A stretch of 39,748 nt of DNA from a virus: the IMG/VR virus record IMGVR_UViG_3300008339_000146, positions 1-39,748 of that record; one strand, given 5' to 3'. Under the pieces are notes generated by a model. The model did not search any database, was not told the DNA's origin, and saw only the letters and a program-made list of their open reading frames with translations. Of this stretch, positions 10,969 to 37,216 are shown one piece after another. The translations under genes and the position numbers were made by a program. Numbering within the stretch: the stretch's first letter is position 1; every line of letters starts with the position of its first letter.

Positions 10969-12534
10969 TTATGACTTTAATGAATTTATTCTATATAAAC
11001 TAAAATTCTGCTTGCATTCTCTGCACTTTACCTGATGCGGCATAAAAACTTGCTCATGCCCGCAATTATCGCAAGAGATATAGTCTAAAGATTTACTCAT
11101 GAGTTTATTTTTTAGTTTTTTTTTACGCTTAACGTCTAGACTCTGAGTTTGAATGACTCCGCCGCCAACCATATCTGTGGGTGCACCAGCTCCGCCGTAG
11201 CCTGCAAGTAGTGCTTTTTTAAGTTTTTTCTTGATCTTATTTCTTTTAACTTCTATATCCGCGGTAGCAGGGTTTTTTTCATCAAAACCATATTCTTTAT
11301 TTGATAGTTTTATATTGTTGTCACCCAGTCTAGAATTATGCTCTCTTGTTGTGTTATTTTTTTGAGATTCTAATTCTTTATGAATTTTTGTGGCATGATC
11401 TTTAACTTCAACCGGAGGTTGCGCAATATAGTGAGCCGCATGACCCATTGCTAAAGAAACTGCCAAGCCTTTTGCTGCTCTAGATACATCGCTCTTGTCC
11501 ATGTCATCAGATTTAGCTATATGCGCATCATATAGTCTTCTTGCCTCGTTTACGTTTATCGATAAACCCTGAGGATGCGGAGTGTTTTTAAGCTTATTAA
11601 TATAGTCTACCATCTGTTGGCGTTGTGGATGATCTTCTGGAATCTTGCCTTTGCTGTGCCATTGTGTCACAAAATCTGGATGCTGGAAACTTTGAGCGGT
11701 ATTGACTGGGGTACTAAGTTTGCTAACGCCAGCAGCTCCGCCTATTAAGCCCATATGATTTATCTTCAATAGTTTGCTAAGTTCATTTATCTTGCGAATA
11801 TTATTTTCAATTTTATTGAAAACTGCATTCTTCATTATTACTTCTGGTTCTGGCAAATCTATGTCTACCTGTATACCAATTTTTGCTGAAAGTTCTTTTA
11901 TTTTTATAATATTGTCGTGTATTGAGTTTGCGGAGGCATGGCGCTGTATATGCCTAAAAGAAGGCACATTAGTTTGTGCAAGATGCATAACTGACTTTAT
12001 AAGTTGCTTGTCTGCTTCCCAGTCTATATTGCTCTTATTTATCTCTAGTGGCTCTACTAGAGTTGCATTGTTTGCTGGTGTAAAAGTAAGTGCTACTGAA
12101 TGTATTTTTGTTCTAGCTAGTCTGGATGGATCACTGACTCCGCGAGCCATTACACCGCCCTCTACAGATGCCTTCATCACTAATGGCGCGTCTTCTCTAT
12201 GTATATTTCTTAATATAGCTGCTGCAGCTTTTGCGTTAGGGTGATCTTCGTTGTTAAAGAGATAGCCCTTGGCATATATAAAAGGAGCCTTTATCTTATC
12301 CCAGTAATATCTATGTCTATCGTTGTCGCAGTCTTCTGACTTTAAAATTTTTTTAGCTTCAGTTACACGGCCAAGAGAATTAAAGAAGCCTTTACCATGA
12401 TTATCGTTGAATCTGCCTCTGCCTTCTAGTAGATCTGCTATATCTGCGCCATCTACGCTAAGAGTTTCGCCCTGAGTATCTTTAAGCTCAGAACCAGCGC
12501 ACATGTCAATCCACATCTTATTATCTTTAGCCAT
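10969..12534 (-). CDS. Prohead (capsid maturation) protease fused to scaffold-like region and zinc ribbon
   Basis: 521 aa. Residues 1-150 match the herpesvirus/T4 gp21-type prohead serine protease: DNHG (H46) as the likely catalytic His, MKASVEGG (S123) as the likely nucleophile, and strands TKIHSVALTFTPANNATLVE. Residues ~165-440 are helical and lysine/glutamate-rich, a scaffold-like extension. KKALLAGYGGAGAPTDM (~440-455) copies the N-terminal motif of the capsid protein. The end (~488-507) is a CxxC-x12-CxxC zinc ribbon. ATG at 12534 has no ribosome site and lies 9 nt from a -10 element, so it is probably leaderless. It trims scaffold, capsid and perhaps other head proteins inside the prohead. 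Confidence 0.82.
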   Translation of the reverse strand: MAKDNKMWIDMCAGSELKDTQGETLSVDGADIADLLEGRGRFNDNHGKGFFNSLGRVTEAKKILKSEDCDNDRHRYYWDKIKAPFIYAKGYLFNNEDHPNAKAAAAILRNIHREDAPLVMKASVEGGVMARGVSDPSRLARTKIHSVALTFTPANNATLVEPLEINKSNIDWEADKQLIKSVMHLAQTNVPSFRHIQRHASANSIHDNIIKIKELSAKIGIQVDIDLPEPEVIMKNAVFNKIENNIRKINELSKLLKINHMGLIGGAAGVSKLSTPVNTAQSFQHPDFVTQWHSKGKIPEDHPQRQQMVDYINKLKNTPHPQGLSINVNEARRLYDAHIAKSDDMDKSDVSRAAKGLAVSLAMGHAAHYIAQPPVEVKDHATKIHKELESQKNNTTREHNSRLGDNNIKLSNKEYGFDEKNPATADIEVKRNKIKKKLKKALLAGYGGAGAPTDMVGGGVIQTQSLDVKRKKKLKNKLMSKSLDYISCDNCGHEQVFMPHQVKCRECKQNFSLYRINSLKS

Positions 12535-12543
12535 ATAGACTAT

Positions 12544-12550
12544 ATTATAC
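12544..12550 (-). promoter_or_regulatory. GTATAAT element 9 nt before the protease start codon
   Basis: The minus strand reads ATAGTATAATATAGTC. The ATG at 12534 follows after 9 nt and no Shine-Dalgarno is present, which predicts a leader of only 2-3 nt. Confidence 0.65.
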
Positions 12551-12567
12551 TATATTAAGTAGTTAGA

Positions 12568-12918
12568 TTATTCGTCTTCTAGATCTTTTATTATCTTCAT
12601 TTGTCGAATTTTTTCAATAGCTTGCTCAGTCATATCTTTAACTGTTTCTATGGAGAGATTGTTCATGTGTGCTATTTCTTTATCTGAAGGTGGCTCATGC
12701 AGGTAGTCCGCTACATAATTAAAAAAACAATAATTAGACATTTGATGATTTATTGACCAAGGACAACCTGGCAGTTTAGATTCTTCATCTTCAGATAATT
12801 CTTTATCACTATTTCTAAGTGCTTTTAATCTTAATACGGCTAGAGGACAAAACTCGCAAGGTAAATTTTCTAGACGTCTTGGGCATCTGGCATCCATTTT
12901 TCTTTTTTTACTCTTCAT
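12568..12918 (-). CDS. Cys-rich helix-turn-helix protein (possible transcription regulator)
   Basis: 116 aa. The N-terminal half has cysteines spaced like a metal site (CPRRLENLPCEFCPLAV, CPWSINHQMSNYCFFNYV). The C-terminal part, residues ~75-110, reads as a sigma-region-4-like helix-turn-helix (SDKEIAHMNNLSIETVKDMT, then EQAIEKIRQM). Similar small Cys/HTH phage proteins exist, and I recall no proven role. The start has no ribosome site; a -10 variant (TCTAAT) lies 6 nt upstream, so it may be leaderless. A role in switching phage promoters is inference. Confidence 0.6.
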   Translation of the reverse strand: MKSKKRKMDARCPRRLENLPCEFCPLAVLRLKALRNSDKELSEDEESKLPGCPWSINHQMSNYCFFNYVADYLHEPPSDKEIAHMNNLSIETVKDMTEQAIEKIRQMKIIKDLEDE

Positions 12919-12924
12919 GCAGTT

Positions 12925-12931
12925 ATTAGAC
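12925..12931 (-). promoter_or_regulatory. GTCTAAT, variant -10 6 nt before a start codon
   Basis: The minus strand reads AAAGTCTAATAACTGC then ATG at 12918. It has one mismatch to the recurrent GTATAAT element, the same 6-nt gap as three other sites, and no Shine-Dalgarno. Confidence 0.4.
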
Positions 12932-12941
12932 TTTTGTAAAA

Positions 12942-13478
12942 TTAATTACTTAAAATCCTCTCCATTATTTTAGAGACGCGCTCTTCCTCTGGTCCATCTA
13001 TAGTGCTATATTTTATACCATATTTATCTAAAAATTGTCTTGTCATGCTATCTACTACTTTTGCTTCATCTTCTGACTGATATCTGCCTCTAGAGTCATA
13101 TTCTTTACCTCTCTCAAGCAGAAAATTAAGATGTGTTACTCCGCGCTCTTTAGCTTTTGCCATAAATTTAAGAGCAGCCTCTTCCATAAAAGAGTCATTG
13201 TTATAGAAATATTCGTATATAGGTGCTAGTATAATAGGAGAATCTGTAACTATATAGTTAACCTTCCCATAGAGTGTGTGCTCAAGCTTGCATTGCTCAC
13301 CAAATATGTTTATCTGATCAAACTGAGTTATATGAGCGCCTTGCCAGGCTAGAATTTTAACATATTCTCTAACAAGCTCGACATCCATGTGTCTTAATTT
13401 CATATTATAATAGAGACCAGCTGCGATAGTGGATTTACCTATGCCACTACCGCCTAACATATTGATGACTACCGTCAT
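12942..13478 (-). CDS. P-loop kinase-like protein, NadR/AAA_28 type
   Basis: 178 aa. Walker A GGSGIGKST at 9-17, then helices, YIVTDSPIILAPIYEYF (Walker-B-like) and a lid region LLERGKEYDSRGRYQSEDEA. This is the pattern of the NadR/Ttd14-like P-loop kinases, called AAA_28 in many phages; the substrate (a nucleoside, nicotinamide riboside or other) cannot be read from the sequence. GAGGG precedes the ATG, which lies 2 nt after the upstream stop. It belongs to a block of nucleotide-handling genes between protease and portal. Confidence 0.75.
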   Translation of the reverse strand: MTVVINMLGGSGIGKSTIAAGLYYNMKLRHMDVELVREYVKILAWQGAHITQFDQINIFGEQCKLEHTLYGKVNYIVTDSPIILAPIYEYFYNNDSFMEEAALKFMAKAKERGVTHLNFLLERGKEYDSRGRYQSEDEAKVVDSMTRQFLDKYGIKYSTIDGPEEERVSKIMERILSN

Positions 13479-13479
13479 C

Positions 13480-14055
13480 TTAACCCTCTTGCTCTGATTT
13501 TTCTTCAGTTACTAGTTGCTTCTTAATAGATAGAACAGTAATATTATGCTTTGCTCCATTAAAATCTGCCTCTACTGTATCATTAATACGTAGCCCTAGC
13601 AATTTTTGACGCAAAACAGGGTTTAGGCATTCACTCATAGGAAACTTAGAACGAAAGATGCCTTGATCTTCTGCTAACTCAGGGGTATGCGATGTAATAG
13701 TAATAACGCTATTTTCTGTAACTAGACCCTCATTATCTATCACGTATCCTTTAATAGTATCTTCTTTGGCGGATGCATTATCAAAATCTACTAGTTTAAG
13801 TTGTTCTGCTTTTTTATCTATCGCATTGCGGTCAAAATTACCAACTTCTAGCATGGCAAGGGTACGATATTGAAAATCATTTAGCATTCCCATAGTAGAC
13901 GACAGATCACCCTGGGTAACTTTAAATTGATCTAGGATATGCTTAATCATTGTCTGAGAAACCTGTAGTGCCATCTGCGTATTCTGAAGTGCAACCTCTA
14001 GTTCTTTAATTTTAGTCTTAACTGAATCCTGTTTATTCAACTTTACACCTTTCAT
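13480..14055 (-). CDS. Gre-like protein: coiled coil plus FKBP-like C-terminal domain
   Basis: 191 aa. Residues ~8-95 form a long helical, coiled-coil-like region with an acidic tip (GNFDRNAIDKK). Residues ~105-185 resemble the C-terminal domain of GreA/GreB: strand pairs ending in LRQKLLGLRINDTVEADFNG and then HNITVLSIKK, comparable to the Gre pattern ALLGKxxGDxVE...YxILxI. If correct, it would bind in the RNA polymerase secondary channel and alter cleavage, pausing or promoter choice. A strong ribosome site (GGAGG) precedes it. The similarity is by eye; a plain coiled-coil protein remains possible. Confidence 0.5.
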   Translation of the reverse strand: MKGVKLNKQDSVKTKIKELEVALQNTQMALQVSQTMIKHILDQFKVTQGDLSSTMGMLNDFQYRTLAMLEVGNFDRNAIDKKAEQLKLVDFDNASAKEDTIKGYVIDNEGLVTENSVITITSHTPELAEDQGIFRSKFPMSECLNPVLRQKLLGLRINDTVEADFNGAKHNITVLSIKKQLVTEEKSEQEG

Positions 14056-14065
14056 AATTCCTCCA

Positions 14066-14512
14066 TTATTTTGTAAAAATAGCTTTTTCTAACATATTTG
14101 CCGCTATATTGTCTAAATCAACTAGATCTTTTTTTCTATTATATTTTTGCTTCCATGCTATGATATCGTCAACGTCTTGGCAGATAATATTCCCATAGTT
14201 TGATTCTACTGCTCTCAAATTAAACTCTTTATTTTTCTTAAATAATAATATATTAACCTTAACGTTGGAATACTTAGTAAATCCTGAGTATGATACATAC
14301 TCGTCGTCTCTTTCGATATCTGAGTAAATATCTGGCCACAGACCTAGCTCTTTAATAATGTTAACATTAGAAGATACAAAATCTATATCGTGTATAGGTC
14401 TATTTGGCAATACACCTTTAAGAATTAGCGCCGCTGATCCGCATAAAAAAATATCTTTATGATTAGCTTGAAGTTGCGTTATCATAAAAGATATGTCTTT
14501 TACATCTTCCAT
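14066..14512 (-). CDS. Nucleotidyltransferase-like protein (Pol beta superfamily)
   Basis: 148 aa. CGSAALILKGVLPNRPIHDI at 24-43 followed by DFV gives the hG[GS]-x-D-x-D signature of minimal nucleotidyltransferases (G25, S26, D42, D44). A third acidic strand may be VKVNILLF. The C-terminal helix contains DDIIAWKQKYNRKKDLVDLD, the pattern seen in nucleotidyltransferase/AbiEii-type proteins. The substrate may be a protein, RNA or small molecule. It follows the kinase gene after 1 nt. A toxin-type role is possible but no antitoxin is evident beside it. Confidence 0.65.
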   Translation of the reverse strand: MEDVKDISFMITQLQANHKDIFLCGSAALILKGVLPNRPIHDIDFVSSNVNIIKELGLWPDIYSDIERDDEYVSYSGFTKYSNVKVNILLFKKNKEFNLRAVESNYGNIICQDVDDIIAWKQKYNRKKDLVDLDNIAANMLEKAIFTK

Positions 14513-14513
14513 G

Positions 14514-15374
14514 TTAGCCTAGCTTTTCTTTAATACGTTTAGCATATATCTTTAGTATCTGAATCTCTTCGTCTGTGAAATCATTAGTCTTTGGTTCATG
14601 AAAAATACTCTCTAGTTGCTGCTCTAGGAAAGATCTAATGTCTTTTTCAAGGATGTTAAAAGCATCGCCTTTCTTCTTGATGATCGGACCTCCGAGTAGA
14701 TCTCGGATAGCATTTGCTCGTTCGAGCTTTTTATCCAGTTGAGTGTGTACCACACGTCGAAGCTCGGGATCTTCTGCACCGCCATCTGATCCTGAATTAC
14801 CTGATCGTAGAGACCCAGACAAGCCAGAGTCTCTGAGATTCTCGCTCTTATTGAGAGATTTGCTGTCTGTGTCTTTAGTTCTTGAATCATTTTGTTGGAC
14901 TTTCTTAAAATCTGTAAGTTGTCTTTTTTCGAATTCATAGGTTTTTGACATATTTTCGTATAGCCTTGTTGCGTGAAAAAACTGTGATTTAGTTAGTGGT
15001 TCATTGTTTGCGACGCATCGCTGCCAGTGTGCATCTTCGTCTTCATCATGCATTAGAATTCTTATAGATTCATTATTAAACTCAATTTGCCTAAGGTACT
15101 CGAAGTCCTCATCGTCTAAGAGTGCTTGTCTGCCAAATATCTCTGGCCAAACTAGTTCGCCATATGGCGAACGATCAAACACAACATCTTTGCCCGCATA
15201 CTTGCTGTACATCTCTAGTATTTCTTCAAGATATGAAGCACCGGCATAACCTGGTTTAAAGTATCTTTTATTAGGCGCTTCCATGTGTACTATCTGGAAA
15301 CCTTGATTTTTATATATTTCAGCAAGTGTAGATTTACCAGATCTGTCAAGACCTTCTAGAATTATCCATGCCAC
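14514..15374 (-). CDS. dNMP (thymidylate-type) kinase-like protein with C-terminal extension
   Basis: 286 aa from a GTG at 15374 behind AAGGA. Residues 5-16 (ILEGLDRSGKST) are the Walker A of thymidylate-kinase-like enzymes; VVFDRSPYGELVW (~63-75) is the DR(S)xxS strand. The kinase core ends near 150. The remaining ~135 residues are a Ser/Asp/Gly-rich linker (~155-195) and a helical tail not usual for the family. It should phosphorylate a deoxynucleoside monophosphate for DNA synthesis; the base is not predictable. The start overlaps the small upstream ORF by 29 nt. Confidence 0.7.
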   Translation of the reverse strand: MAWIILEGLDRSGKSTLAEIYKNQGFQIVHMEAPNKRYFKPGYAGASYLEEILEMYSKYAGKDVVFDRSPYGELVWPEIFGRQALLDDEDFEYLRQIEFNNESIRILMHDEDEDAHWQRCVANNEPLTKSQFFHATRLYENMSKTYEFEKRQLTDFKKVQQNDSRTKDTDSKSLNKSENLRDSGLSGSLRSGNSGSDGGAEDPELRRVVHTQLDKKLERANAIRDLLGGPIIKKKGDAFNILEKDIRSFLEQQLESIFHEPKTNDFTDEEIQILKIYAKRIKEKLG

Positions 15375-15537
15375 CGTATATTCCTTTTTTAAATTTATTT
15401 ACATATCGTTCAGCTTTAGTTAGGGCAAAATATGGGCCATCATCTTCTTCTACGTGACTGACAATATTATTAGGGATTTCCAGCTTGGAAATGACGAACA
15501 TAAGCCTATATAATATTTCGTAATCCTGTACAATCAC
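15346..15537 (-). CDS. Small hypothetical protein, leaderless GTG start
   Basis: 63 aa (MIVQDYEILYRLMFVISKLE, then EEDDGPYFALTKAERYVNKF). It is soluble and not recognised. The start is a GTG at 15537, 6 nt after a GTATAAT element, without a Shine-Dalgarno; an in-frame ATG at 15501 is the alternative. It ends inside the kinase gene with a 29-nt overlap, so it may couple kinase translation to its own. Its placement as the first ORF after a promoter argues for a real gene. Confidence 0.5.
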   Translation of the reverse strand: MIVQDYEILYRLMFVISKLEIPNNIVSHVEEDDGPYFALTKAERYVNKFKKGIYGGMDNSRRS

Positions 15538-15543
15538 AAAAAT

Positions 15544-15550
15544 ATTATAC
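15544..15550 (-). promoter_or_regulatory. GTATAAT element 6 nt before the 63-aa ORF
   Basis: The minus strand reads TTAAGTATAATATTTTT then GTG. It is the likely promoter of the kinase/nucleotidyltransferase block, just downstream of the portal gene. Confidence 0.6.
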
Positions 15551-15577
15551 TTAATATAAAATGACTAAAGATGAAGT

Positions 15578-17419
15578 TTACTTTTCTCTTTGGCCATGCT
15601 GTATAGCGTTATAAGCCGCTTTACCTTTTATTTCAGCCATGTCAGCGTCATGTTTTTCTTTATCTCTAGAGTGTTTTTGCTGTTCTAATTCTGCTTTCTG
15701 CTGTTCCTGCTGCTGTTGAGCTGCTAACTGCTGCTGCTGAGCAGCTGCTTGCTCTTTTTGAGCTTTCTGTTGCATTTTGCCTTGCTCAATCTGCATAAGC
15801 ATCTGCTGCCAGCCCATAAATGAAGGATCGCCGGGAATATACTGGAGTTCTTGTTTTTTTGAAGCGCCTTTATCTCCAAGAAATAGCTCTCGTATTTCGC
15901 CTCTTGTCATGTTCTTTTCCACTACGCCCCAAAATGCAGCGTTCATTGGTAGATCAGCTATCGGATGTTTTATGTGCTTCTTTCTAGCTGCAGATAGAAG
16001 ATCGTTCATAGATTTATGAACAGCCATTTCTGCTTGCAACAATGCTACTTCTGTCTGTGGAGTTTCATCAGTGTAGCCTTCAAATTGAAATTTATATTTT
16101 TTAGGATAGTCTGGGTCTATAGCTGGCAGTATGCTAGAGTTTATAAAATCTTCTAGAAACATAAGCAGCGGATATAGACCTTTTTCTCTAGAGAATTCAA
16201 TCTTAGTTTCATGACCTTGCTGATTTACTGCACGACCGCCAGTAACGAGCAGATCAAGACCTAGTTCCATAGGATCTATCTGGAACTGCGAGCACACGGC
16301 ACGCATAAGATGTGTATTGTAGTTTAAGTACTCCATCTCTTTTGAGCCACCAGCCATGGGAACCCACTGTACGTCTTCTAGGCCAGAGACTATAGGAGTT
16401 CGCCATGCATTTTGTGCGCCGTTTATAAGACTATAGAATTGCCTACGAAATGCAGTCATCTGTGCTTGCGTGACTGTTCCTTTTAGATGTAGTATTCCTT
16501 TTGCTGCTTGACCATGAGTAAAGAAGTTGGAGTTATAGTGCTCCGTATTCATATGGTTAGTTATATTTATTATGGCCATCTCTGTTGGAGAATAGCAGTA
16601 GCCATTGCCGTCTGCAAAATTCTGTGGGCTATAGAGTTTAAATATTAGATCTTCATCTCCAAATACTGCAAGGGGTCTGTTATCATAAGATACTTGTATA
16701 TATTTATAGTAGTCTAGAGGCAGCTCGTTTACCACATAATTTTTTTTAGGGTCATTATCTGACTGCGATTTAAACGTATTCTTAACAGCCTTTATATGAT
16801 CTTCGACTTGTGCTCTTGGTGCATTTGTATTTATGTGATAAATGCTTTCTGCAGGAACTGGTCTGAACCTGTGTAGTGCACCTCTACGTGTTCTTATTTT
16901 CTCAACGGTTACATTTCCAAATGTAAGAGCATCTCTAACGATCATCTTTATGAAATCATTAAATAGCAATCTGTCATCGTCCGGCGTATTTGATATTCTG
17001 CCGCAATTATAGATAAAATCTTCTAAGTTGCTTATTTCTTTTTTTTCATCTGATGAATATTCTTCGGCATGATCTCGTTTAACTATGCGGTAACCAAGAT
17101 CAAATTTTCTTGTTTGAGGCCTAGCAAATCTAGATAGAGTATCTACCCTATTCTGCACAATAGTGGATACTAGCCAGTCTCTCATAGAGACATCTTTTAG
17201 TGTCTTATTGGACAATCTTGAAAGTCTATATCTAAAGATAGTTTGCTGACTTTGTTGGGTAAAAAATGGATCAGCAACTATTGCTTTACGGCCTATCTCT
17301 GGATTATCATCGTCTGAAACTTCATCGCGTTTTTCTGGTACTTGGTCTGCGTCGCCTTTATTTAACAGTTCAATTTCTCTGCGAACGCCATCTCGTATCC
17401 AATTATCCCAAAAGGCCAT
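15578..17419 (-). CDS. Portal protein
   Basis: 613 aa. It matches large phage portals in order: an N-terminal arm, a helical wing with MRDWLVSTIVQNRVDTLSRF, DALTFGNVTVEKIRTRRG, FRPVPAESIYHINTNA, PTEMAIINITNHMNTEHYN, QFQIDPMELGLDL, and then a C-terminal Q/A/E-rich coiled tail (from ~545). It forms the dodecameric DNA gate at the capsid vertex, to which the terminase docks. The ribosome site (CGGAG) and a promoter lie 22 nt or less upstream. The N-terminus (MAFWDNWIRDGVRREIE) weakly resembles the NWIL tag of the genes at 7726 and 6869. Confidence 0.9.
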   Translation of the reverse strand: MAFWDNWIRDGVRREIELLNKGDADQVPEKRDEVSDDDNPEIGRKAIVADPFFTQQSQQTIFRYRLSRLSNKTLKDVSMRDWLVSTIVQNRVDTLSRFARPQTRKFDLGYRIVKRDHAEEYSSDEKKEISNLEDFIYNCGRISNTPDDDRLLFNDFIKMIVRDALTFGNVTVEKIRTRRGALHRFRPVPAESIYHINTNAPRAQVEDHIKAVKNTFKSQSDNDPKKNYVVNELPLDYYKYIQVSYDNRPLAVFGDEDLIFKLYSPQNFADGNGYCYSPTEMAIINITNHMNTEHYNSNFFTHGQAAKGILHLKGTVTQAQMTAFRRQFYSLINGAQNAWRTPIVSGLEDVQWVPMAGGSKEMEYLNYNTHLMRAVCSQFQIDPMELGLDLLVTGGRAVNQQGHETKIEFSREKGLYPLLMFLEDFINSSILPAIDPDYPKKYKFQFEGYTDETPQTEVALLQAEMAVHKSMNDLLSAARKKHIKHPIADLPMNAAFWGVVEKNMTRGEIRELFLGDKGASKKQELQYIPGDPSFMGWQQMLMQIEQGKMQQKAQKEQAAAQQQQLAAQQQQEQQKAELEQQKHSRDKEKHDADMAEIKGKAAYNAIQHGQREK

Positions 17420-17441: not shown

Positions 17442-17448
17442 ATTATAC
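17442..17448 (-). promoter_or_regulatory. GTATAAT -10 element upstream of portal
   Basis: The minus strand reads CCAAAGTATAATATATC. TTGACT occurs 19 nt upstream, longer than the usual 17-nt spacing, making this the only site with a hint of a -35 box. The ATG is 22 nt downstream, with a Shine-Dalgarno. Confidence 0.6.
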
Positions 17449-20447: not shown

Positions 20448-20454
20448 ATTATAC
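20448..20454 (-). promoter_or_regulatory. GTATAAT -10 element upstream of the terminase group
   Basis: The minus strand reads TTTTGGTATAATCATAAG, with TGG forming an extended -10. The start codon is 17 nt downstream with GAGGA. Confidence 0.6.
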
Positions 20455-24823: not shown

Positions 24824-24830
24824 ATTATAC
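24824..24830 (-). promoter_or_regulatory. GTATAAT -10 element upstream of the SSB gene
   Basis: The minus strand reads ATCGTGGTATAATATATTC, with TGG forming an extended -10. The TAA stop of the 154-aa gene is part of the element. The predicted leader is about 52 nt. Confidence 0.6.
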
Positions 24831-29849: not shown

Positions 29850-30139
29850 TATTGCACCTTTGTTTTAGTTTTTACTCTAATATTCTCAATATGTTCTAGC
29901 AGAAACTCAATCTTTGCTTTTTCGTATTTAAGTGCACAACTAAAGCCAGCGTTAAGATCTTTTAGTATTTCTTTAGCAGCTTTTAATTCTTGATTTTCTT
30001 CTTTATCATGTAGAATCTGCTTAATTTCAAATTCAATGCCTACAATCTGCTTCTCTGCGTCTTCTTCAGTTAGAGTTCTTGAATTAGCAACCCATGATTC
30101 AGTTAAAACCTTATCCCAACTATTCTTTTTCTTAGCCAT
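29849..30139 (-). CDS. Hypothetical coiled phage protein
   Basis: 96 aa from ATG at 30139. A strong Shine-Dalgarno (GGAGGT) decides this start over an ATG 18 codons upstream inside the resolvase gene. It reads MAKKKNSWDKVLTESWVANS, then long charged helices (EEDAEKQIVGIEFEIKQIL, KAAKEILKDLNAGFSCALKY), suggesting a helical bundle. Not recognised. Confidence 0.6.
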   Translation of the reverse strand: MAKKKNSWDKVLTESWVANSRTLTEEDAEKQIVGIEFEIKQILHDKEENQELKAAKEILKDLNAGFSCALKYEKAKIEFLLEHIENIRVKTKTKVQ

Positions 30140-30776
30140 CCTGACCTCCGTATTCGTATGTACCTTTTGGTATCTTATTCCATTTAATATCATTCACAGG
30201 AGTACTATACTCGATCGTCTTTGCATTAGAGTATATTGAGGCGTGAAATATGGCCATGGCAACGGCATCAACTATATCATATCTAAATTTAATAGGCTTT
30301 CCAGTATTTGAAGAGATAGAATGATTTGGAAACCTGATGTTCCATCTTTTGTGGAGAGATTCTTGAGTCATTAACTTTTTAGCAGGCTCATTGCCCCACT
30401 TATCTTTTTGCTCTTTTGTCGGTCTAACCCTATGGTTTATAAAATTTTTCCAAAGTGATATATTTATGATATCGTACGCTAGTCCTAATTGCCTGCACTT
30501 AAGATGTATCATTGCTCTATACGCACAGTTTAAGTTAGCCCCCTGAGAAGATCTTGAGCTAAAAAAATAATCCTCTACACCAACATGAGATATGCTATTG
30601 TTTTTTATAAGATCTTCTATTTTTGTAAGTAAATCTATGTATTGATCACCAGCATAAGTATGTTGATCTATGTCTATAAATCCCCAACTTATAATTTTCG
30701 CAGAGTTGCTAGATTCATCGTAGTTATATATACAATAGCCAGTTGAATTAGCTGGATCTACTATTAGCACATTCAT
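30132..30776 (-). CDS. RuvC-like Holliday junction resolvase
   Basis: 214 aa. An RNase H-like fold with acidic residues in RuvC order: VDPANSTGYCIY (D7), VGVEDYFFS (E68), and FRYDIVDAVAMA (D167, D170). The SSRSSQGANLNCAYRAMIH stretch corresponds to the RuvC helix after the second acid. It should cut branched DNA during recombination and before packaging. The ATG at 30776 has no Shine-Dalgarno and is 6 nt from a -10 element, so a leaderless start is likely. Confidence 0.82.
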   Translation of the reverse strand: MNVLIVDPANSTGYCIYNYDESSNSAKIISWGFIDIDQHTYAGDQYIDLLTKIEDLIKNNSISHVGVEDYFFSSRSSQGANLNCAYRAMIHLKCRQLGLAYDIINISLWKNFINHRVRPTKEQKDKWGNEPAKKLMTQESLHKRWNIRFPNHSISSNTGKPIKFRYDIVDAVAMAIFHASIYSNAKTIEYSTPVNDIKWNKIPKGTYEYGGQDG

Positions 30777-30782: not shown

Positions 30783-30789
30783 ATTATAC
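30783..30789 (-). promoter_or_regulatory. GTATAAT element 6 nt before the resolvase start
   Basis: The minus strand reads AACTAGTATAATAACTAG then ATG. No Shine-Dalgarno. The stop codon of the 43-aa gene touches the element. Confidence 0.65.
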
Positions 30790-31764: not shown

Positions 31765-31785
31765 GGTATTCTCCACACTACTGAA

Positions 31786-31792
31786 ATTATAC
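31786..31792 (-). promoter_or_regulatory. GTATAAT -10 element upstream of the 280-aa gene
   Basis: The minus strand reads AATATGGTATAATTTC, with TGG forming an extended -10; a second TATAAT lies 9 nt further upstream. The ATG is 21 nt downstream with GGAG. Confidence 0.65.
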
Positions 31793-31806
31793 CATATTAT
31801 AGGGCC

Positions 31807-33576
31807 TTATTGACTATTTAAACTAGAAATTCCGCCTCTTTTCTCTACTCTAATTACTTGATTAAATAGACTTTTTGACTCTGATGCGTGATCAATGACC
31901 CATATTTGCCTATTTACTGATAATTTCGCCAATATATCTATTATAAGCTCTCTACCTAAAAGGTCTAGGCCATCAAAAGGCTCATCTAGAACTACAGGAT
32001 TTACATCTATGCTATAATGAGAACTAAGCACTTGAATTATTGCAAAATCTACTATTAAAGATAGGGCCCTAAATTCTCCACCAGAAAGTGAGCCTATAGA
32101 TCGCTCTGATCCATCAACAGTAAATGTTTCTGATATCTTTGCTTTGAGACTTTTGTCTTTATTTTCTTTAAAGGTCTTAATTGAATAGCTTGCATTTGGC
32201 CAAACATCAATAATATCTGAGGATATGATCTCATTTATAAGATCCACTATACAATCTATAATGTAGGCAGGTGCACCTGTAGAATCAAAGATGTGCTCAA
32301 CTGCTCCAAGAACTAGTTCTTCGGTGTGCAATTCCTCTAGTTTTACATTGAGAGCAGATACTTTTTTAACTATATCTGTTATCTTGTCATTAATGTCTTC
32401 ATTTTTTTCAATCTGAGACTTTAAATTTGATGTTTCTAACCTTTTCAACGCTATAGAATTCTTATATTCTGCAATTGAATTTTGTGCATCTCTATAATCT
32501 TTATATTCTTCTTGCTTTTTAAGCTTTAACTTCTCTACTAATAGGCGGATTTCTTCTTTCTTAGAAAGAGTTCTATCATGTTTATCTATATTTGATTTTA
32601 TCTCTTCTAGCTGTATCTTAATTTCAGTTTGATGAAGTTCCCATTGTGCTTTAAGTGCTTCAATATCATCAGCTTTAGCAAGTGTTTTGCCTTGTATGTT
32701 TAGTTCTGCGCTACAGGCTGGACATATGGCGTCTGGCTGCTTTGGATTAAACGGTCTAAGTGAAGTCTGCAGTTGATTATAGCGCTTCATATCTTCATTT
32801 CTAGTAGCATTTGCCGCAGCTAGAATTGATAACTTTTCTTGTATTTTATTTTCTGTTTCCGCATACTTAGACAAGTCTGGCTCTTTTACTAGCTCTAATT
32901 GCTTAATCTCTTTAACATAAGCCTGTATATCTTTGTCTAATTGAAGTATGCTTGAATTTATTGAGTCAATGCTAACTAGTGATTGACTATATATATCTAA
33001 ATTAGAATTATAACTATCTATTTTAGATTTTATTATATTCTTATTTTGCTCTAGTTCTTTTAATTTTGACGAAACTGTCTCTTTTGCATCGTTAAATTTG
33101 TTAAGATTCATTATCTTAAGTAAGAAATTTTTTTTATCTGCATCGTTAAGCGTAAGAAAGCGTTCAGCAGAATCTTGTGGATTGTACATTGTGAGGATGA
33201 ACTGTTCGTAGTTAAGTTTTATGTTTATTTCAAACTCTTCCTGAGTCATGTCTACTTTTATATCATCTATATAAAACTCTACGGCTGCTGGTCTAGCTCT
33301 TTTAACCTTAAAGCTTCTATCATTAACACCCACTGTAACACAACAATATCCTTCTTTTGCTCCTTTTCGCAATATTTCAGACTTACTAATTCTTCGTGGA
33401 ATTTTGTCGTATAAAGCAAACGAAATAGCATTAAATATAGCAGACTTTCCTGCTCCATTTGCGCGACTTGTATCATGGTCGTATCCTTCAACTAGGACTA
33501 GTCCCGTTTCGCCAAAAGAAATTTCGGCATTCTGAATAGATAATATATTTTCTATTTCTACTTTTAATAATCTCAT
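31807..33576 (-). CDS. SbcC/Rad50-like ATPase (T4 gp46 type)
   Basis: 589 aa from ATG at 33576, which forms an ATGA overlap with the PDZ gene. Head: Walker A NGAGKSAIFNAISFAL, ABC signature LSGGEFRALSL, Walker B VVLDEPFDGLD. Two long coiled coils flank a zinc hook (CPAC, about residue 285), the Rad50 layout in the short phage size. It works with the gp47-like nuclease at 20460 to resect DNA ends for recombination-dependent replication and to process host DNA. Confidence 0.92.
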   Translation of the reverse strand: MRLLKVEIENILSIQNAEISFGETGLVLVEGYDHDTSRANGAGKSAIFNAISFALYDKIPRRISKSEILRKGAKEGYCCVTVGVNDRSFKVKRARPAAVEFYIDDIKVDMTQEEFEINIKLNYEQFILTMYNPQDSAERFLTLNDADKKNFLLKIMNLNKFNDAKETVSSKLKELEQNKNIIKSKIDSYNSNLDIYSQSLVSIDSINSSILQLDKDIQAYVKEIKQLELVKEPDLSKYAETENKIQEKLSILAAANATRNEDMKRYNQLQTSLRPFNPKQPDAICPACSAELNIQGKTLAKADDIEALKAQWELHQTEIKIQLEEIKSNIDKHDRTLSKKEEIRLLVEKLKLKKQEEYKDYRDAQNSIAEYKNSIALKRLETSNLKSQIEKNEDINDKITDIVKKVSALNVKLEELHTEELVLGAVEHIFDSTGAPAYIIDCIVDLINEIISSDIIDVWPNASYSIKTFKENKDKSLKAKISETFTVDGSERSIGSLSGGEFRALSLIVDFAIIQVLSSHYSIDVNPVVLDEPFDGLDLLGRELIIDILAKLSVNRQIWVIDHASESKSLFNQVIRVEKRGGISSLNSQ

Positions 33577-33998
33577 TCTCTGCAAATCCTGTCAACTACT
33601 GCCTTAAGCTTTAGCGTTTTACCATTTCTTCTTACAATTAAATCTACAGTTTCGCCAAATTTTAAATCCATATCCCAGACGCGAGTTACAAACTCATCTC
33701 CAGGTCTTAGTCCAGCTTTCCATGCAGGTCCATCGTATGCTACATGAGTAACTATTCCAGTTAATCCCATAAACTGAACGCCTATACCCACATAGTAATC
33801 ACATGGAATAGGACCTCTGTTGAACCAAATTTTAACTTTTTCTCCGCCGTCACTATCTTCAGATTTTGAACTTTTACCTTCTTGCCTCTGTTCCTGTTTT
33901 GGTGGCTGAACATTCTTATAGCGAGATAAGACTAGTACTATGTGTAACGTTAGACTTATAGCTAGTGCAACAATAAAAGCTGATATTTTTGTATTCAT
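33573..33998 (-). CDS. Membrane-anchored PDZ-domain protein
   Basis: 141 aa. Residues 5-25 form one transmembrane segment (ISAFIVALAISLTLHIVLVL). A Q/E/S/K-rich linker follows, then a PDZ-like domain from ~68: YYVGIGVQF, GIVTHVAYDGPAWKAGLRPG, DEFVTRVWDMDLKFGETVDL, IVRRNGKTLKLKAVVDR, with the AGLRPGD turn typical of DegS/DegP-like PDZ domains. No protease domain is present. It may recruit a peptide tail to the inner membrane, or interfere with host envelope proteolysis. The ATG has no ribosome site and follows a TATAAA by 6 nt, so it is probably leaderless. Confidence 0.75.
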   Translation of the reverse strand: MNTKISAFIVALAISLTLHIVLVLSRYKNVQPPKQEQRQEGKSSKSEDSDGGEKVKIWFNRGPIPCDYYVGIGVQFMGLTGIVTHVAYDGPAWKAGLRPGDEFVTRVWDMDLKFGETVDLIVRRNGKTLKLKAVVDRICRE

Positions 33999-34004
33999 TG
34001 GGGA

Positions 34005-34011
34005 TTTATAC
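34005..34011 (-). promoter_or_regulatory. GTATAAA element 6 nt before the PDZ gene
   Basis: The minus strand reads CTTAGTATAAATCCCCA then ATG at 33998. No Shine-Dalgarno. The spacing equals that of the resolvase and 63-aa sites. Confidence 0.5.
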
Positions 34012-34367
34012 TAAGATTTCTGCGGCGGTCTAGTTCTAGTTGTAAGTTCACCTTTTTCATTATAGAAAACCCAGCCTTGCTCAAGCATAGTTTCTAGTGA
34101 ATAAGTGCCAGAATCTACCATTTTAGGAACCTCTATCTCCCAGTAGTAGTCTAATTTTCTTTCTTTTAGCACAAGTGAATGATCAGCTAGATGTTTACGA
34201 TTTAATAGCTTATCTACTGTTTCTGTAGTTTTAGCACTTGCAAGAGAAGGCATCTGCCTGTCTGCTCTAGCAAAACACTCGTCGCAAACCACATTATCTG
34301 TAGATTTAGACACATAGCGCTGCGATGATTTGCTGCAAGAGCAGCAGGTGAACGTGTATTTAGGCAT
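34011..34367 (-). CDS. Zinc-ribbon conserved phage protein
   Basis: 118 aa. The N-terminus is a zinc ribbon (FTCCSCSKSSQRYVSK, VVCDECFARADRQMP), like FmdB-type ribbons. The remainder (ETVDKLLNRKHLADH, YYWEIEVPKMVDSGTYSLET, MLEQGWVFYNEKGEL, RTRPPQKS) matches a conserved small phage protein without known function, as I recall. The ATG is in a TAATG overlap with the upstream stop. Confidence 0.65.
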   Translation of the reverse strand: MPKYTFTCCSCSKSSQRYVSKSTDNVVCDECFARADRQMPSLASAKTTETVDKLLNRKHLADHSLVLKERKLDYYWEIEVPKMVDSGTYSLETMLEQGWVFYNEKGELTTRTRPPQKS

Positions 34368-34831
34368 TAGAACTCTAAACCGACGGTTAATCCAATTTGA
34401 CTTTTTTCAGTGGCAATTACGCCAATACTTATATTACCGAGTACTCTTTTTGATACGGCAATTCCAAACTCATATTCATTAATTTTAGCGTCTTGTGCTA
34501 GAACAAGTGCACTGATGTGTAAGCCAGATGTTCTGGTTGTTGTAGTTTTGCTGGATGTTTCTCTGCTAGACGAACCCTCACTAGAAGTATCAGTTATTGA
34601 TCTATCTGTTGTAGTCTCTTCTTCTGTTGTAGTACCATCTGGACTAGTGACTTTGCGTTTAGTTGTAGTCACATTCTTGCGTTCTTCTTTTTTTTCTTTA
34701 TAAACTATAACTTCTTTATCTTTATATTCTGCTATTATCTCTGCGGGCTTAGAAAAACGTCCGGCCATAAATGATATAGCGAATGCTATGACTCCTAATA
34801 GAGCAAATTTTACTCGCTTATCTTTAATCAT
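34367..34831 (-). CDS. Membrane-anchored Thr/Ser/Glu-rich protein
   Basis: 154 aa. Residues 8-25 form a transmembrane anchor (FALLGVIAFAISFMAGRF). A charged segment (EYKDKEVIVYKEKKEERKN) follows, then a Thr/Ser/Lys-rich repetitive stretch with TTEEETTTDRS, and a beta-rich C-terminus (ISIGVIATEKSQIGLTVGLE). Similar anchored low-complexity proteins are common in phages; an inner spanin is one possibility but is unproven. The ribosome site is AGGAG. Confidence 0.5.
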   Translation of the reverse strand: MIKDKRVKFALLGVIAFAISFMAGRFSKPAEIIAEYKDKEVIVYKEKKEERKNVTTTKRKVTSPDGTTTEEETTTDRSITDTSSEGSSSRETSSKTTTTRTSGLHISALVLAQDAKINEYEFGIAVSKRVLGNISIGVIATEKSQIGLTVGLEF

Positions 34832-34832
34832 A

Positions 34833-36506
34833 CTACTCTCCTGCAGTGCTCATCATATCTCTAAAGGCCTGCTTAGACATTGCTAATTGATTTTCAAGCT
34901 GAGAATCGCGAGGAACACAGACTATGCCTCCGCATGTTATTAGTAGCGACGCTACGGACAATGCATTACCTATTGCTACACGAGCTACTTTAGCGGGTTC
35001 AATAATTCCTGCCTCAAAAGGATCAACCACTTCATGTTTGTTAGCATCAAATACTTTACCATTAGAAAGAATTTTTGCTATGTCTTCATGATTTTCTCCA
35101 CAATTTGTCAGCAGTAATTTAAAAGGTTCTCTTAATGCGTTAGACATAATAGACCAAGATGGCCTTGCATCTGATAAAGAATCATCTATGATTTTAGCTA
35201 GCTCTAGCTGAACAAGGCATCCGCCAGGAATTACGCCTTCTGCTATGGCAGATCTTACTGCCTCTACGGCATCTTCTACTCTTGCTTTACGTTCACGCAC
35301 CTTTAAATCAGATACACCGCCTACAAATATTGTAGATATACCGCCTGTAAGTTTGGCTATGTTAGCTCTAACATGCATTTTATCTACCTCTGAAAAACAG
35401 CTTTCTTCTAGTGCCTTAAGCTCAAGGATACGCTGCTCTAGTTGTTCAGAGTCTGGCTGAGCCATAATAAATGTCTCATATGTGTTAGATTTAGCGAAAC
35501 TAAATTGACCAAAATCATCGCTAGTGATATCTTCTACTGTAGATGGATCAAATAGTCTAGCACCAGTATATGCAGCCATGTCTTCTAAGAAGACTGTTCT
35601 AGAGTTCGGTAAGCCAGAGCGAGGAGTCTTAATTGGACAGATGGTTATTCCACCTTTGATATTTTTCACTATTTTATCTAAGACTAGATCAGAAAAATCA
35701 TGTGCTATTATCATGAGCGGCGATCCATAAAGATCAGTGCCTTCAATTGCTTCCTGAACAAATGCAAGTGATTTAAGATCATTTATAGTGCCATTATAAA
35801 GAAAAACATAACCGTTATCCATCTTGCACTGCTGATTGGTTCTGTCATTGATAAACATAGGGCCAAGTTGACCTAAATCTTTTAGGCCAGAAGTTACTAC
35901 ATAACCGTCTATTGTCTCAACTCGCATCTCATCGCCTTGAGCTTCTTCAATTATGATATGCCCATCATCGCCTGCAGACATAACTGCGTCCACAACAACA
36001 TTAGCAATACGAGTATCACCATTAGCTGATATTGTAGCTACACTTCTAAGATTATCTTCGCCTTGAACTGGAACAGCTCTTGTCTTAATATAGGGAACTA
36101 TAACTTCATCGTATAGCTCTTCTAGATCATTAACAATTCGCTGTGGATTATATTTCTTATTGCTTAAGACAAAATCTTGACCATATTGAGTTATAGCGTT
36201 AGCCAGCACAATAGCAGTAGTAGTTCCATCTCCTGCGTCTTTTGCAGTATTGATGCAAATTTCTTTAGCTGCTTCTACAATAATATTATGTTCAGCTTTA
36301 TCAACTCCGAGTGATTTAGCCACAGTAACGCCATCTTTAGTGGCTAACGGTGGTTGGCCATCTCGCTCAATTAATACAGCTCGTCCTCCTGGTCCAAGGG
36401 TTGAGCCGACGATAGTAGCCATGTCTTTAATCGATGATGCAACGATCTTGTTTAATCGTTCTTTGTCTGCAATTATGTCTTTGGCTTTAGATTTTTCATA
36501 GAGCAT
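34833..36506 (-). CDS. groEL: Phage GroEL (group I chaperonin)
   Basis: 557 aa from ATG at 36506 (AAGGTGG upstream). Group I chaperonin signatures: TLGPGGR (36-42), TKDGVTVAKSL (56-66), DAGDGTTTA for ATP binding (90-98), NIAKLTGGISTIFVGG and RKARVEDAVEAVRSAIAEGV with VIPGGC. E. coli GroEL has 548 aa. The C-terminal GGM tail of bacterial GroEL is absent; it ends MMSTAGE. It folds proteins in an ATP-driven chamber, probably phage virion proteins. No GroES or gp31-like gene is in the window. GroEL is known in some jumbo and other large phages. Confidence 0.95.
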   Translation of the reverse strand: MLYEKSKAKDIIADKERLNKIVASSIKDMATIVGSTLGPGGRAVLIERDGQPPLATKDGVTVAKSLGVDKAEHNIIVEAAKEICINTAKDAGDGTTTAIVLANAITQYGQDFVLSNKKYNPQRIVNDLEELYDEVIVPYIKTRAVPVQGEDNLRSVATISANGDTRIANVVVDAVMSAGDDGHIIIEEAQGDEMRVETIDGYVVTSGLKDLGQLGPMFINDRTNQQCKMDNGYVFLYNGTINDLKSLAFVQEAIEGTDLYGSPLMIIAHDFSDLVLDKIVKNIKGGITICPIKTPRSGLPNSRTVFLEDMAAYTGARLFDPSTVEDITSDDFGQFSFAKSNTYETFIMAQPDSEQLEQRILELKALEESCFSEVDKMHVRANIAKLTGGISTIFVGGVSDLKVRERKARVEDAVEAVRSAIAEGVIPGGCLVQLELAKIIDDSLSDARPSWSIMSNALREPFKLLLTNCGENHEDIAKILSNGKVFDANKHEVVDPFEAGIIEPAKVARVAIGNALSVASLLITCGGIVCVPRDSQLENQLAMSKQAFRDMMSTAGE

Positions 36507-36507
36507 A

Positions 36508-37200
36508 CTATTTTCCACCTTCAAATTCTTTAACTATTTTTTTATACTTATTTAGCTTACGTGAATCAATTTCAAAACCATAAAAAGAATGACCTAATTT
36601 AAGACAAGACTGAAGCGCTGCTGCAGTGCCCATGTATGGATCAAAGACTACAGATCCAGGAAGTATATCCGTCATACGTATTAGCAATTCAGCTAAATCT
36701 ACAGGATACGAATCTTCTAGAGAGCCAGTTTCTATCGTCCAAGAATTACCAGGGCAACTCTGGTCATCGTCTATCTTAAGATATTCCCTAATAGGTAATC
36801 TATCTAGTTTCCAGACTTTACCATTACAGAAATAAAGAACATATTCATGAGAATTTACTAGATTTGATTCGCTACGCTTACCAGGCAACCAGGACTTATT
36901 GAGTATGATATTGTCAATATGTTCAAAGCCAGCATCAGTCATTATATTAGCAAGTTCAAATGGTCGACTTTTACACTCATTAGGAGCGTAGCATATGAGG
37001 AACACTATTCCATTTTTTACAGTGTTTGCCTTAAGTCTGTCAGCAAATTGACGCATTATGCTAGCAGAATAACCATCTCGCTTTCGTATAGGCACACGAC
37101 ATATAGTTACCTCTATATTGTTTGGCCATATAGCGTTAGCATCTAGAGGTCCTAGATTAGAAATGCGAATATTCGTAGCAAATAGGCTGTTTATGTCCAT
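36508..37200 (-). CDS. DNA methyltransferase-like protein with degenerate catalytic motif
   Basis: 230 aa. The C-terminal third is a SAM-binding block of beta-class N6A/N4C methyltransferases: DILPGSVVFDPYMGTAAALQ, then GHSFYGFEIDSRKLNKYKKI. Upstream are the usual spacers (HEYVLYFCNGKVWK, NSWTIETGS). The position where DPPY/SPPY belongs (~30-40) reads IEVTICRVPIRKRDGY, without the motif. It may be an inactive homologue that binds DNA or SAM, or a divergent enzyme. The ATG at 37200 has no ribosome site and lies 9 nt from a -10 element, so it is probably leaderless. Confidence 0.75.
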   Translation of the reverse strand: MDINSLFATNIRISNLGPLDANAIWPNNIEVTICRVPIRKRDGYSASIMRQFADRLKANTVKNGIVFLICYAPNECKSRPFELANIMTDAGFEHIDNIILNKSWLPGKRSESNLVNSHEYVLYFCNGKVWKLDRLPIREYLKIDDDQSCPGNSWTIETGSLEDSYPVDLAELLIRMTDILPGSVVFDPYMGTAAALQSCLKLGHSFYGFEIDSRKLNKYKKIVKEFEGGK

Positions 37201-37209
37201 TGTCAGATT

Positions 37210-37216
37210 ATTATAC
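37210..37216 (-). promoter_or_regulatory. GTATAAT element 9 nt before the methyltransferase-like gene
   Basis: The minus strand reads ATAAGTATAATAATCTGACA then ATG. No Shine-Dalgarno, so the predicted leader is 2-3 nt. Confidence 0.65.

Follow-up and report, generated by a model that had tools for sequence, protein, structure and literature searches.

Several genes in the window (the whole stretch of 39,748 nucleotides analysed here) start within a few nucleotides of a -10-like element and lack a Shine-Dalgarno (SD) sequence, which raises the question of whether their mRNAs are leaderless. The window is part of an uncultured SPO1-related phage of ~166 kb, and its genes are densely packed and co-directional. 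The first-pass annotation had proposed leaderless mRNAs for six genes lying 6 to 9 nt from GTATAAT or a variant of it, and all its coordinates and close spacings proved correct. Hereafter, d is the number of nucleotides between the end of the -10 motif and the start codon. The elements and genes concerned are the following:

12544..12550, minus strand: GTATAAT extended -10 element, 9 nt before the ATG at 12534; 9 nt also in the relative L003
10969..12534, minus strand: prohead-protease-like gene, predicted leaderless (~3-nt leader); aligned start at d=9, no SD
12568..12918, minus strand: gene 12918, sigma region-4-like HTH protein; its GTCTAAT at 6 nt is not conserved
15544..15550, minus strand: GTATAAT, 6 nt before the GTG at 15537; GTG and 6 nt kept in L003 and L024
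15346..15537, minus strand: 63-aa ORF with a GTG start, predicted leaderless; same start in the L003 and L024 orthologues
30783..30789, minus strand: GTATAAT, 6 nt before the ATG at 30776; 6 nt kept in the L108 (G006) orthologue, 58% identical
30132..30776, minus strand: RuvC-like resolvase gene, predicted leaderless; PHROG 159 RuvC-like, E 1.4e-9
34005..34011, minus strand: GTATAAA variant, 6 nt before the ATG at 33998; read from the window sequence only
33573..33998, minus strand: PDZ-domain-like gene, possibly leaderless; Pfam PDZ_2, E 9.2e-6, under the cut-off
37210..37216, minus strand: GTATAAT, 9 nt before the ATG at 37200
36508..37200, minus strand: DNA N6/N4 methyltransferase-like gene, predicted leaderless (~3-nt leader); aligned start at d=9

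The product of 10969..12534 matched a PHROG head maturation protease (E 9.6e-6) and that of 36508..37200 matched Pfam PF01555 (E 1.8e-13). The Pfam RuvC match of 30132..30776 was under the cut-off, and no Pfam or PHROG match was found for the 63-aa ORF.

Comparison with relatives, a set of 109 loci, supported the leaderless assignment for the genes starting at 12534, 15537, 30776 and 37200, left it plausible for 33998 and removed 12918 from the list. The spacing at 15537 was conserved in both diverged orthologues found (85.7% and 68.5% identical in L003 and L024), that at 30776 in one of three only, the gene being SD-led in L084 and its start ambiguous in L121. The starts at 12534 and 37200 recur within a 6-10 nt class; the latter has SD-less orthologues with GTATAAT 10 nt (L061) and 7 nt (L067) upstream, and is SD-led in 8 of 11 orthologue rows. 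For 33998 no diverged orthologue was found, as among the compared loci only the same phage carries the gene. Gene 12918 was rejected because the GTCTAAT 6 nt upstream is absent from every other orthologue listed; this variant was seen at 6 nt once among 338 SD-less starts without GTATAAT.

The same element also stands further upstream, at 17-96 nt, of eight comparison genes, for which an SD had been reported; by eye each has one that is AGGA-, GGAG- or GAGG-like:

20448..20454, minus strand: GTATAAT promoter of the SD-led gene 20430, d=17
17442..17448, minus strand: GTATAAT promoter of the SD-led portal gene (17419), d=22
31786..31792, minus strand: GTATAAT promoter of the SD-led gene 31764, d=21
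37675..37681, minus strand: GTATAAT promoter of the SD-led dUTPase-like gene 37653, d=21
4338..4344, minus strand: GTATAAT promoter of the SD-led gene 4305, d=32
6843..6849, minus strand: GTATAAT promoter of the SD-led gene 6817, d=25
10938..10944, minus strand: GTATAAT promoter of the SD-led gene 10841, d=96
24824..24830, minus strand: GTATAAT promoter of the SD-led gene 24764, d=59; the +6 ATG opens a 25-codon upstream ORF

In the leader of gene 20430, as in the relative L057, an ATG at the predicted +1 opens a 7-codon ORF (a 5'-AUG leader).

The bare number of GTATAAW in the window was not enriched (21 against 18.3 expected; 32 of 100 shuffles reach 21), and bare counting was therefore abandoned as a test in favour of strand, place and spacing. 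GTATAAT occurred on the coding and the other strand in a ratio of 12:1. Eleven of the twelve coding-strand copies lie wholly outside the gene list, in DNA that makes up 3.3% of positions 701-39576, and the remaining copy shares 6 bases with the end of a gene. The other 7-mers of the same composition occurred at most 3 times each on the coding strand outside the gene list.

Spacing was analysed at 312 GTATAAT sites in nine related records. We observed an ATG exactly 6 nt after the motif at 64 sites, whereas the 39 other spacings between 0 and 39 averaged 8.05 (Poisson P ~3e-35); the neighbouring spacings of 5 and 7 nt gave 2 and 11. ATATAAT, CTATAAT, TTATAAT, GTATATT, GTACAAT, GTAAAAT and two letter-shuffled motifs showed no comparable peak, and the excess for GTATAAA was weak (9 of 187 sites). 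Since the raw ATG count at 9 nt was at background (6/312), this spacing was not retained as a class of its own and was kept within the 6-10 nt class. ORFs of at least 60 aa were opened by 40 of the 64 ATGs (median over all 64, 122.5 aa). The ORFs opened by the other 24 were below 60 aa, and two of these ATGs lie at sequences that by eye resemble tRNA genes; ARAGORN made no tRNA call at the tRNA-like site in G002. A terminator-like T-run, judged by eye, directly precedes several d=6 sites.

Start codons were then considered in a set picked solely by alignment between relatives (n=1,167, "homology-supported"). Measured from GTATAAT, 48 of these starts lay at 6 nt (43 of them ATG), 20 at 7-10 nt, 1 at 11-14 nt, 126 at 15-53 nt and one at 0, with none at 11-13 nt. 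None of the 68 close-class starts (6-10 nt) had a strong SD. For d=6 this absence is in part imposed by the -10, which occupies the SD position; what is informative is the 7-10 nt class together with the empty gap at 11-13 nt. By the rule used, a strong or weak SD was present in 112 of the 126 far-class starts and absent from 14. Nine of the 48 d=6 starts scored a weak SD, in every case an AAGG running into the G of the -10 and thus outside the predicted mRNA. Inside the leader, SD-like 4-mers were at chance level at 7-10 nt (1/20, compared to 0.6 in shuffles) and near-constant further away (42/43 at 15-22 nt and 55/57 at 23-35 nt, compared to 21.3 and 25.2). An in-frame, SD-preceded start within the first 30 codons was found for 0/68 close-class and 11/126 leadered genes, and the close-class start codons appear from their sequence to be the authentic ones.

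Extended -10 promoters of sigma-70/SigA have TATAAT preceded by TG at -15/-14 and no -35 box. Upstream of the GTATAAT studied here T-15 and G/A-14 were favoured: T-15 and G-14, counted separately and enriched rather than universal, reached 61% and 47% in the 64 d=6 sites and 52% and 40% in 128 other intergenic sites. No -35 hexamer was detected in either set; the d=6 set showed no more than a slight A/T preference at -21 and -19, besides isolated columns further upstream. Unlike in the sigma-70/SigA promoters, G at -13, which the search motif itself sets, was needed for the spacing peak, and 3 of the 9 phage records (G001, G003 and G007) encode a SigA-like factor ending before region 4.2. Position +6 of the 126 far promoters carried A in 69, G in 29, T in 20 and C in 8; with 98 purines there, transcription should start at +6.

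Taken together, the 6-nt peak, the two-peaked distances with their gap, the SD-less close class and the +1 purine strongly support leaderless transcription, as first proposed. Judging from these patterns, it is very probable that a -35-less extended -10 promoter yields a leaderless mRNA (0-4 nt leader) and that the same promoter, placed further upstream, yields an SD-led one. Such a promoter, with T-R-G-TATAAT favoured, would fire ~7 nt downstream of its last base; a start codon at +1 or at most 4 nt beyond would give a leaderless mRNA without SD, and one further away (leader of at least 8 nt) would nearly always come with an SD. Translation would proceed by direct recognition of the 5'-terminal start codon, by analogy with lambda cI, and the leaderless form would be a compact alternative, well translated by the host. 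Transcription probably relies on the host polymerase and its primary sigma, and the phage SigA-like factor of G001, G003 and G007 may contribute. RNA polymerase beta (PF00562) had no match in ten records.

We then compared the arrangement among orthologues. Predicted leaderless forms were found in 10/28 protease rows (GTATAAT at 6-9 nt, no SD), 8/41 kinase rows, 7/42 portal rows (d=6) and 3/11 methyltransferase rows. A protease tree of 19 rows implied 5 changes between leaderless and SD-led, at least 4 of them forced by well-supported branches, in a quick tree with 6/16 weak inner branches on which the label was not clearly clustered (76/500 shuffles as low). Omitted from this tree were 9 of the 28 rows, in which GTATAAT was missing at 6-10 nt and the rule used found no SD; they include Mx1 and two rows with ATATAAT at 9-10 nt. 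For the kinase and the portal, switching amounted to few events, with 1 and 2 changes. The pattern recurs on two MAG contigs from outside the 109-locus set, with ATG at 6 nt (kinase) and GTG at 7 nt (protease). The trait is not uniform in the family, as G003 and G007 have no leaderless start (0/11 and 0/3 promoter-linked starts), although a variant, GTAGAAT, lies 6 nt before the sigma gene of G003. GTATAAT preceded an ATG by 6 nt at 1/25 sites in SPO1 (100 of 133 kb) and 1/23 in EalM-132 (100 of 146 kb), and 150 of the 170 kb of Mx1 contained no GTATAAT. Portal relatives in genome contigs were found only twice, in Cytophagales and Saprospiraceae MAG bins. SDs are naturally absent from Bacteroidota (PMC6847099), which fits SD-rich phages badly; these assignments may be wrong.

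The +6 ATG could instead reflect an initiator preference of the polymerase for transcripts beginning with AUG, unrelated to translation of the gene. ATG is indeed found at +6 in 11/126 far-class leaders, against a mean of 2.0 at the other offsets from 0 to 11, and the 24 short ORFs, including the two tRNA-like cases, would suit this explanation. Against it, 40 of the 64 ATGs open longer ORFs, 43 of the homology-supported starts are ATGs at 6 nt, the 7-10 nt class is SD-less too with its ATG away from +1, and +1 at far promoters is A or G mostly without TG next; we regard it as most improbable. It is also very improbable that the close GTATAATs are not real promoters and that these genes are read from long-leader upstream transcripts by SD-independent translation, for instance at A-rich unstructured starts. 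The dense co-directional genes would allow this, and an SD is also absent from 338 of the 971 homology-supported starts without an upstream GTATAAT, so SD-less starts do exist in these phages. However, such transcripts leave the exact 6-nt peak, the empty gap and the near-constant SD at promoters at least 15 nt away unexplained, and the T-runs seen by eye before several d=6 sites speak against them.

It had further been suggested that leaderless genes form a subset favoured when ribosomes are altered in infection, and a programme of this kind, responding to changed ribosomes or initiation factors, has been proposed for the Thermus phage phiYS40 (~152 kb). There, most middle and late mRNAs are leaderless (Sevostyanova 2007, as cited in PMC3594737), and a review passage describes raised IF2 and lowered IF3 during infection. 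Besides this precedent, the two G001 genes that match sigma region 2 both begin at GTATAAT-N6-ATG. We found no support for a favoured subset. Many relatives carry these genes in SD-led form, which speaks against a special role when ribosomes are altered; the predicted leaderless class is of mixed function, with portal, protease, Pol III alpha-like, kinase, helicase and sigma genes, and spans structural, replication and transcription genes; and the S21, S1 and IF1 families had no match in the ten records searched. A functional programme is therefore unlikely, and leaderlessness, since orthologues move between the two arrangements, looks interchangeable and compact rather than the tag of a functional class.

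The predicted leaderless genes have known counterparts. According to Zheng 2011 (PMC3160421) and Zhong 2025 (PMC12340547), leaderless genes of Deinococcus-Thermus and Actinobacteria have a -10 box ~6-7 bp before the ORF, coexist with GGAG-led genes without bias to a single pathway, and make up nearly one third of genes in D. radiodurans. The bacterial (TA-led) genes share with ours a -10-like box 6-10 nt before the start and the lack of an SD in the predicted transcript; they differ in the box, TANNNT there compared to TATAAT with G-13 in these phage genomes, and in share, which here is 68 of 1,167 aligned starts. PhiYS40 is reported to have many leaderless mRNAs, as is predicted here, but its leaderlessness goes with a temporal class, whereas here one promoter motif occurs in both arrangements and orthologues switch. 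As a positive control for spacing phiYS40 was set aside: 150 of its 152 kb showed no GTATAAT- or TATAAT-to-ATG peak at 6 nt, which leaves the spacing test uncalibrated on a proven leaderless case. According to Beck 2016 (PMC4965119), the lambda cI mRNA is naturally leaderless with a 5'-terminal AUG, a single gene compared to the genome-wide architecture here, and E. coli 5'-uAUG mRNAs are SD-led yet begin with AUG. The latter arrangement is that of window gene 20430 and of the 11/126 leaders, here predicted from promoter spacing only. The AR9 paper states that phage transcripts are often leaderless, AR9 itself having long leaders, and in another paper hidden mycobacteriophage endonucleases are proposed to be translated from leaderless mRNAs. 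Among the literature matches listed, in a coverage excluding most subscription papers, lineage-wide leaderless genes in SPO1-related phages were unreported. Leaderless genes are thus already known in bacteria and phiYS40, and what is new is a predicted lineage-wide case in an SPO1-related phage family.

A bolder and doubtful proposal is that part of the family carries a self-contained leaderless expression switch, in which the SigA-like factor without region 4.2, possibly with the region-4-like HTH protein (12568-12918; its AlphaFold model, mean pLDDT 67.1, is too uncertain), would read the -35-less GTATAAT, the sigma gene itself being expressed from a leaderless mRNA. If true, phage transcription could start and persist in cells in which SD-dependent initiation is blocked or shut off. 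Leaderless translation has so far mostly been studied in few bacteria and single phage genes, and the single-nucleotide sharpness seen here, beside SD-led genes with the same promoter motif, provides a natural comparison of two initiation modes. It also offers a prediction of transcription starts in uncultured phages and a correction of start-codon calls made by gene finders that expect an SD.

The coordinates of the motif and of the genes for which the first-pass annotation had predicted leaderless mRNAs were correct on rechecking in the window sequence. The genes discussed here, named by start-codon position, are:

12534, prohead-protease-like gene
15537, 63-aa ORF starting with GTG
30776, RuvC-like gene
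33998, PDZ-like gene
37200, methyltransferase-like gene
12918, start of the gene at 12568-12918, minus strand, with the variant GTCTAAT
20430, Shine-Dalgarno (SD)-led gene, 17 nt after GTATAAT

The bare count of GTATAAW in the window was not above chance. GTATAAT was split 12:1 in favour of the coding strand, and 11 of the 12 coding-strand copies lay wholly within the 3.3% of positions 701-39576 outside the gene list, where every other 7-mer of equal composition occurred at most three times on that strand.

Starts were picked purely by aligning ORFs that share no more than 90% identity, so that their choice was independent of the tested signal, with ATG weighted over GTG and TTG. The ORFs came from 109 loci, 13 of 122 having been excluded as sections of the window or of complete records; 1,305 of 2,160 ORFs were given a start, and 1,167 starts, from loci that are mutually non-independent, remained once duplicates and starts too close to a contig end were set aside. 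Within 60 nt, GTATAAT preceded 48 starts at 6 nt, 20 at 7-10 nt, 1 at 11-14 nt, 43 at 15-22 nt, 57 at 23-35 nt, 26 at 36-53 nt and one at 0 nt, with none at 1-5 nt. The single start at 11-14 nt compares with 19 expected from the 15-35 nt rate (P ~1e-7). We refer to the 68 starts at 6-10 nt, predicted leaderless, as the close class and to the 126 leadered starts at 15-53 nt as the far class.

Table. SD of starts by distance from the end of GTATAAT (none/weak/strong)
6 nt: 39/9/0
7-10 nt: 20/0/0
15-22 nt: 2/14/27
23-35 nt: 6/24/27
36-53 nt: 6/11/9

All nine weak SDs at 6 nt were AAGG extending into the -10 element, outside the predicted mRNA. Within the leader, SD-like 4-mers were present for 1 of 20 starts at 7-10 nt, the chance level, and for 42 of 43 at 15-22 nt and 55 of 57 at 23-35 nt, about twice the shuffled level. 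An SD-preceded in-frame start within the first 30 codons was found in 0/68 close, 11/126 far and 67/971 other starts. Close-class start codons were 63 ATG, 5 GTG and no TTG (all 1,167 starts: 1,024 ATG, 86 GTG and 57 TTG).

The spacing was also analyzed in nine related uncultured phage records (G001-G009; 1.01 Mb, both strands), which contain 312 GTATAATs. The distance from motif to ATG was precisely 6 nt for 64 copies, 5 nt for 2 and 7 nt for 11; each of the 39 distances other than 6 nt in the 0-39 nt range was represented by 2-13 copies. An ORF of 60 aa or longer begins at 40 of the 64 ATGs at 6 nt. We did not observe this peak with A, C or T at -13, with GTATATT, GTACAAT or GTAAAAT, or with two letter shuffles, and GTATAAA gave a weak one (9/187). 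ATG stood at 6 nt in 1/25 GTATAATs of SPO1 and 1/23 of Exiguobacterium phage EalM-132 (100 kb covered each), and Mx1 (150 kb covered) contained no GTATAAT.

Of the 126 leadered promoters, 98 have a purine (A or G) at +6 after TATAAT, and 64 have T at the position before. Since the ATG of the 6-nt class occupies this purine position and no start lies at 1-5 nt, the close class would correspond to mRNA leaders of 0-4 nt and, with the same purine as start point, the far class to leaders of at least 8 nt. Apart from the search motif, just three positions passed the information threshold at 128 other intergenic sites: T at -15, G/A at -14 and A/G at +1. The 64 sites with ATG at 6 nt additionally showed A at -6, a pyrimidine at -1, a weak A/T preference at -21 and -19, and single scattered columns at -47, -59 and -60. 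A -35 hexamer was absent from both sets, and the GTATAAT promoter is, as judged from these alignments, of the extended -10 type. In a third arrangement, 11 of the 126 far promoters, including that of 20430, carried an ATG at +6 with the gene's own start further on (against a mean of 2.0 at the other offsets from 0 to 11, P ~8e-6), and 10 of the 11 had a weak or strong SD. The predicted mRNA of 20430 begins with AUG, opening a 7-codon ORF, and ten other far-class leaders likewise begin with AUG; an E. coli study describes mRNAs with a 5' AUG ahead of the gene's own start that can function both ways (PMC4965119).

Conservation of the proposed leaderless starts differed between genes. For 15537, GTG and the 6-nt spacing were retained in both diverged orthologues found (loci L003 and L024). 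The 6-nt spacing of 30776 recurred in an orthologue 58% identical (L108), whereas the L084 orthologue was SD-led and that in L121 had no assignable start. No diverged orthologue of 33998 was found. The leaderless start proposed at 12918 was not sustained, GTCTAAT occurring in no other orthologue listed.

Table. Arrangements among orthologue rows, the window's own phage included
Protease 12534, 28 rows: 10 leaderless (6-9 nt), 8 promoter + SD, 1 SD only, 9 neither
Kinase 15374, 41 rows: 8 leaderless, 30 SD-led, 3 neither
Portal, 42 rows: 7 leaderless, 31 SD-led, 4 neither
Methyltransferase 37200, 11 rows: 3 leaderless, 8 SD-led

Among the nine "neither" protease rows, one was Mx1 and two had ATATAAT at 9-10 nt. 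On quick trees omitting such rows, the protease (19 rows) required 5 label changes, at least 4 of them forced by well-supported branches, a number as low being reached in 76 of 500 shuffles; the portal and kinase required 2 and 1 changes, respectively, over 38 rows each. These changes indicate that leaderless and SD-led arrangements are interchangeable at a single gene. Leaderless starts among promoter-linked starts numbered 8/18 in G001, 7/16 in G002, 8/16 in G004, 7/11 in G005, 5/15 in G006, 1/5 in G008, 2/6 in G009, 0/11 in G003 and 0/3 in G007.

Concerning the reader of this promoter, the RNA polymerase beta family had no match in ten records. G001 encodes a SigA-like factor of 229 aa (L127:1141-1830, minus strand), itself starting at GTATAAT-N6-ATG, which matched Pfam sigma regions 1.2, 2 and 3 and left region 4 unmatched. 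Its alignment stops at residue 345 in a SigA of 390 residues and at residue 565 in E. coli RpoD (613 residues), which we take to be before region 4.2, and by eye no frame directly downstream takes the alignment up again. The G003 and G007 homologues (228 aa, 45% identical) end similarly, and the G003 start lies 6 nt after the variant GTAGAAT. A further G001 gene, whose region-2 match is borderline (25.2 and 23.8 bits, cut-off 24), also starts at GTATAAT-N6-ATG. Sigma families PF04542 and phrog_351 were unmatched in G002, G005, G006 and G009; in G004 a 503-aa frame contains one region-2 match above the Pfam cut-off, and G008 had one short weak match. Since G002, G005 and G006, lacking a match to the sigma families tried, and G004, with its one region-2 match, are all rich in promoter-linked starts, the host primary sigma would be the simplest reader, with a possible additional contribution of the phage factor. 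The 33 aligned family members of the small 12568-12918 protein share four cysteines without exception and an HTH at the C terminus, and 21 of the 33 matched Sigma70_r4 at E <=0.01. This protein may represent the absent region 4.2, with the sigma split in two.

The window, an IMG/VR virus record of 39,748 bases whose principal genes lie on the minus strand, is nearly identical to part of the 165,836-base contig G001, agreeing at 100% along 21,839 bases and at 99.6% across 18,591 aligned bases. Its portal, terminase, major head protein, SbcC-like, Pol III alpha-like, UvsX-like and GroEL-like proteins fit a large tailed phage. Among the matches listed, the major capsid protein was 28-30% identical to SPO1-type phages and the portal protein 26-31% to Myxococcus phage Mx1 and herelleviruses; annotated phages yielded no near-identical match to 15000-37800. 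For the GroEL-like chaperonin gene (34833-36524, minus strand), the first phage match listed was Mx1 (33.6% identity). Two phage contigs of the same architecture (L123 and L124) lie in Cytophagales and Saprospiraceae MAG bins, despite the phages being SD-rich. G002 (L088:1373-1448) and G004 (L085:2339-2416), which have large tRNA clusters, carry a tRNA with a CUA anticodon, labelled tRNA-Pyl by ARAGORN and possibly an amber suppressor. A helicase-like protein of G006 (L107:8574-11042) contains an intein with a LAGLIDADG endonuclease, neither of them seen in the G001 relative.

Bacterial leaderless genes with a -10 element adjoining the ORF are established, according to passages of PMC3160421 and PMC12340547, and phage phiYS40 is reported, in a review, to make most of its middle and late mRNAs without a leader (PMC3594737). 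On the evidence of its sequences, this lineage provides a new example among phages, and an unusually clean one, of such already-known genes, distinguished by one promoter motif common to both arrangements, switching between orthologues and an empty gap in leader length.
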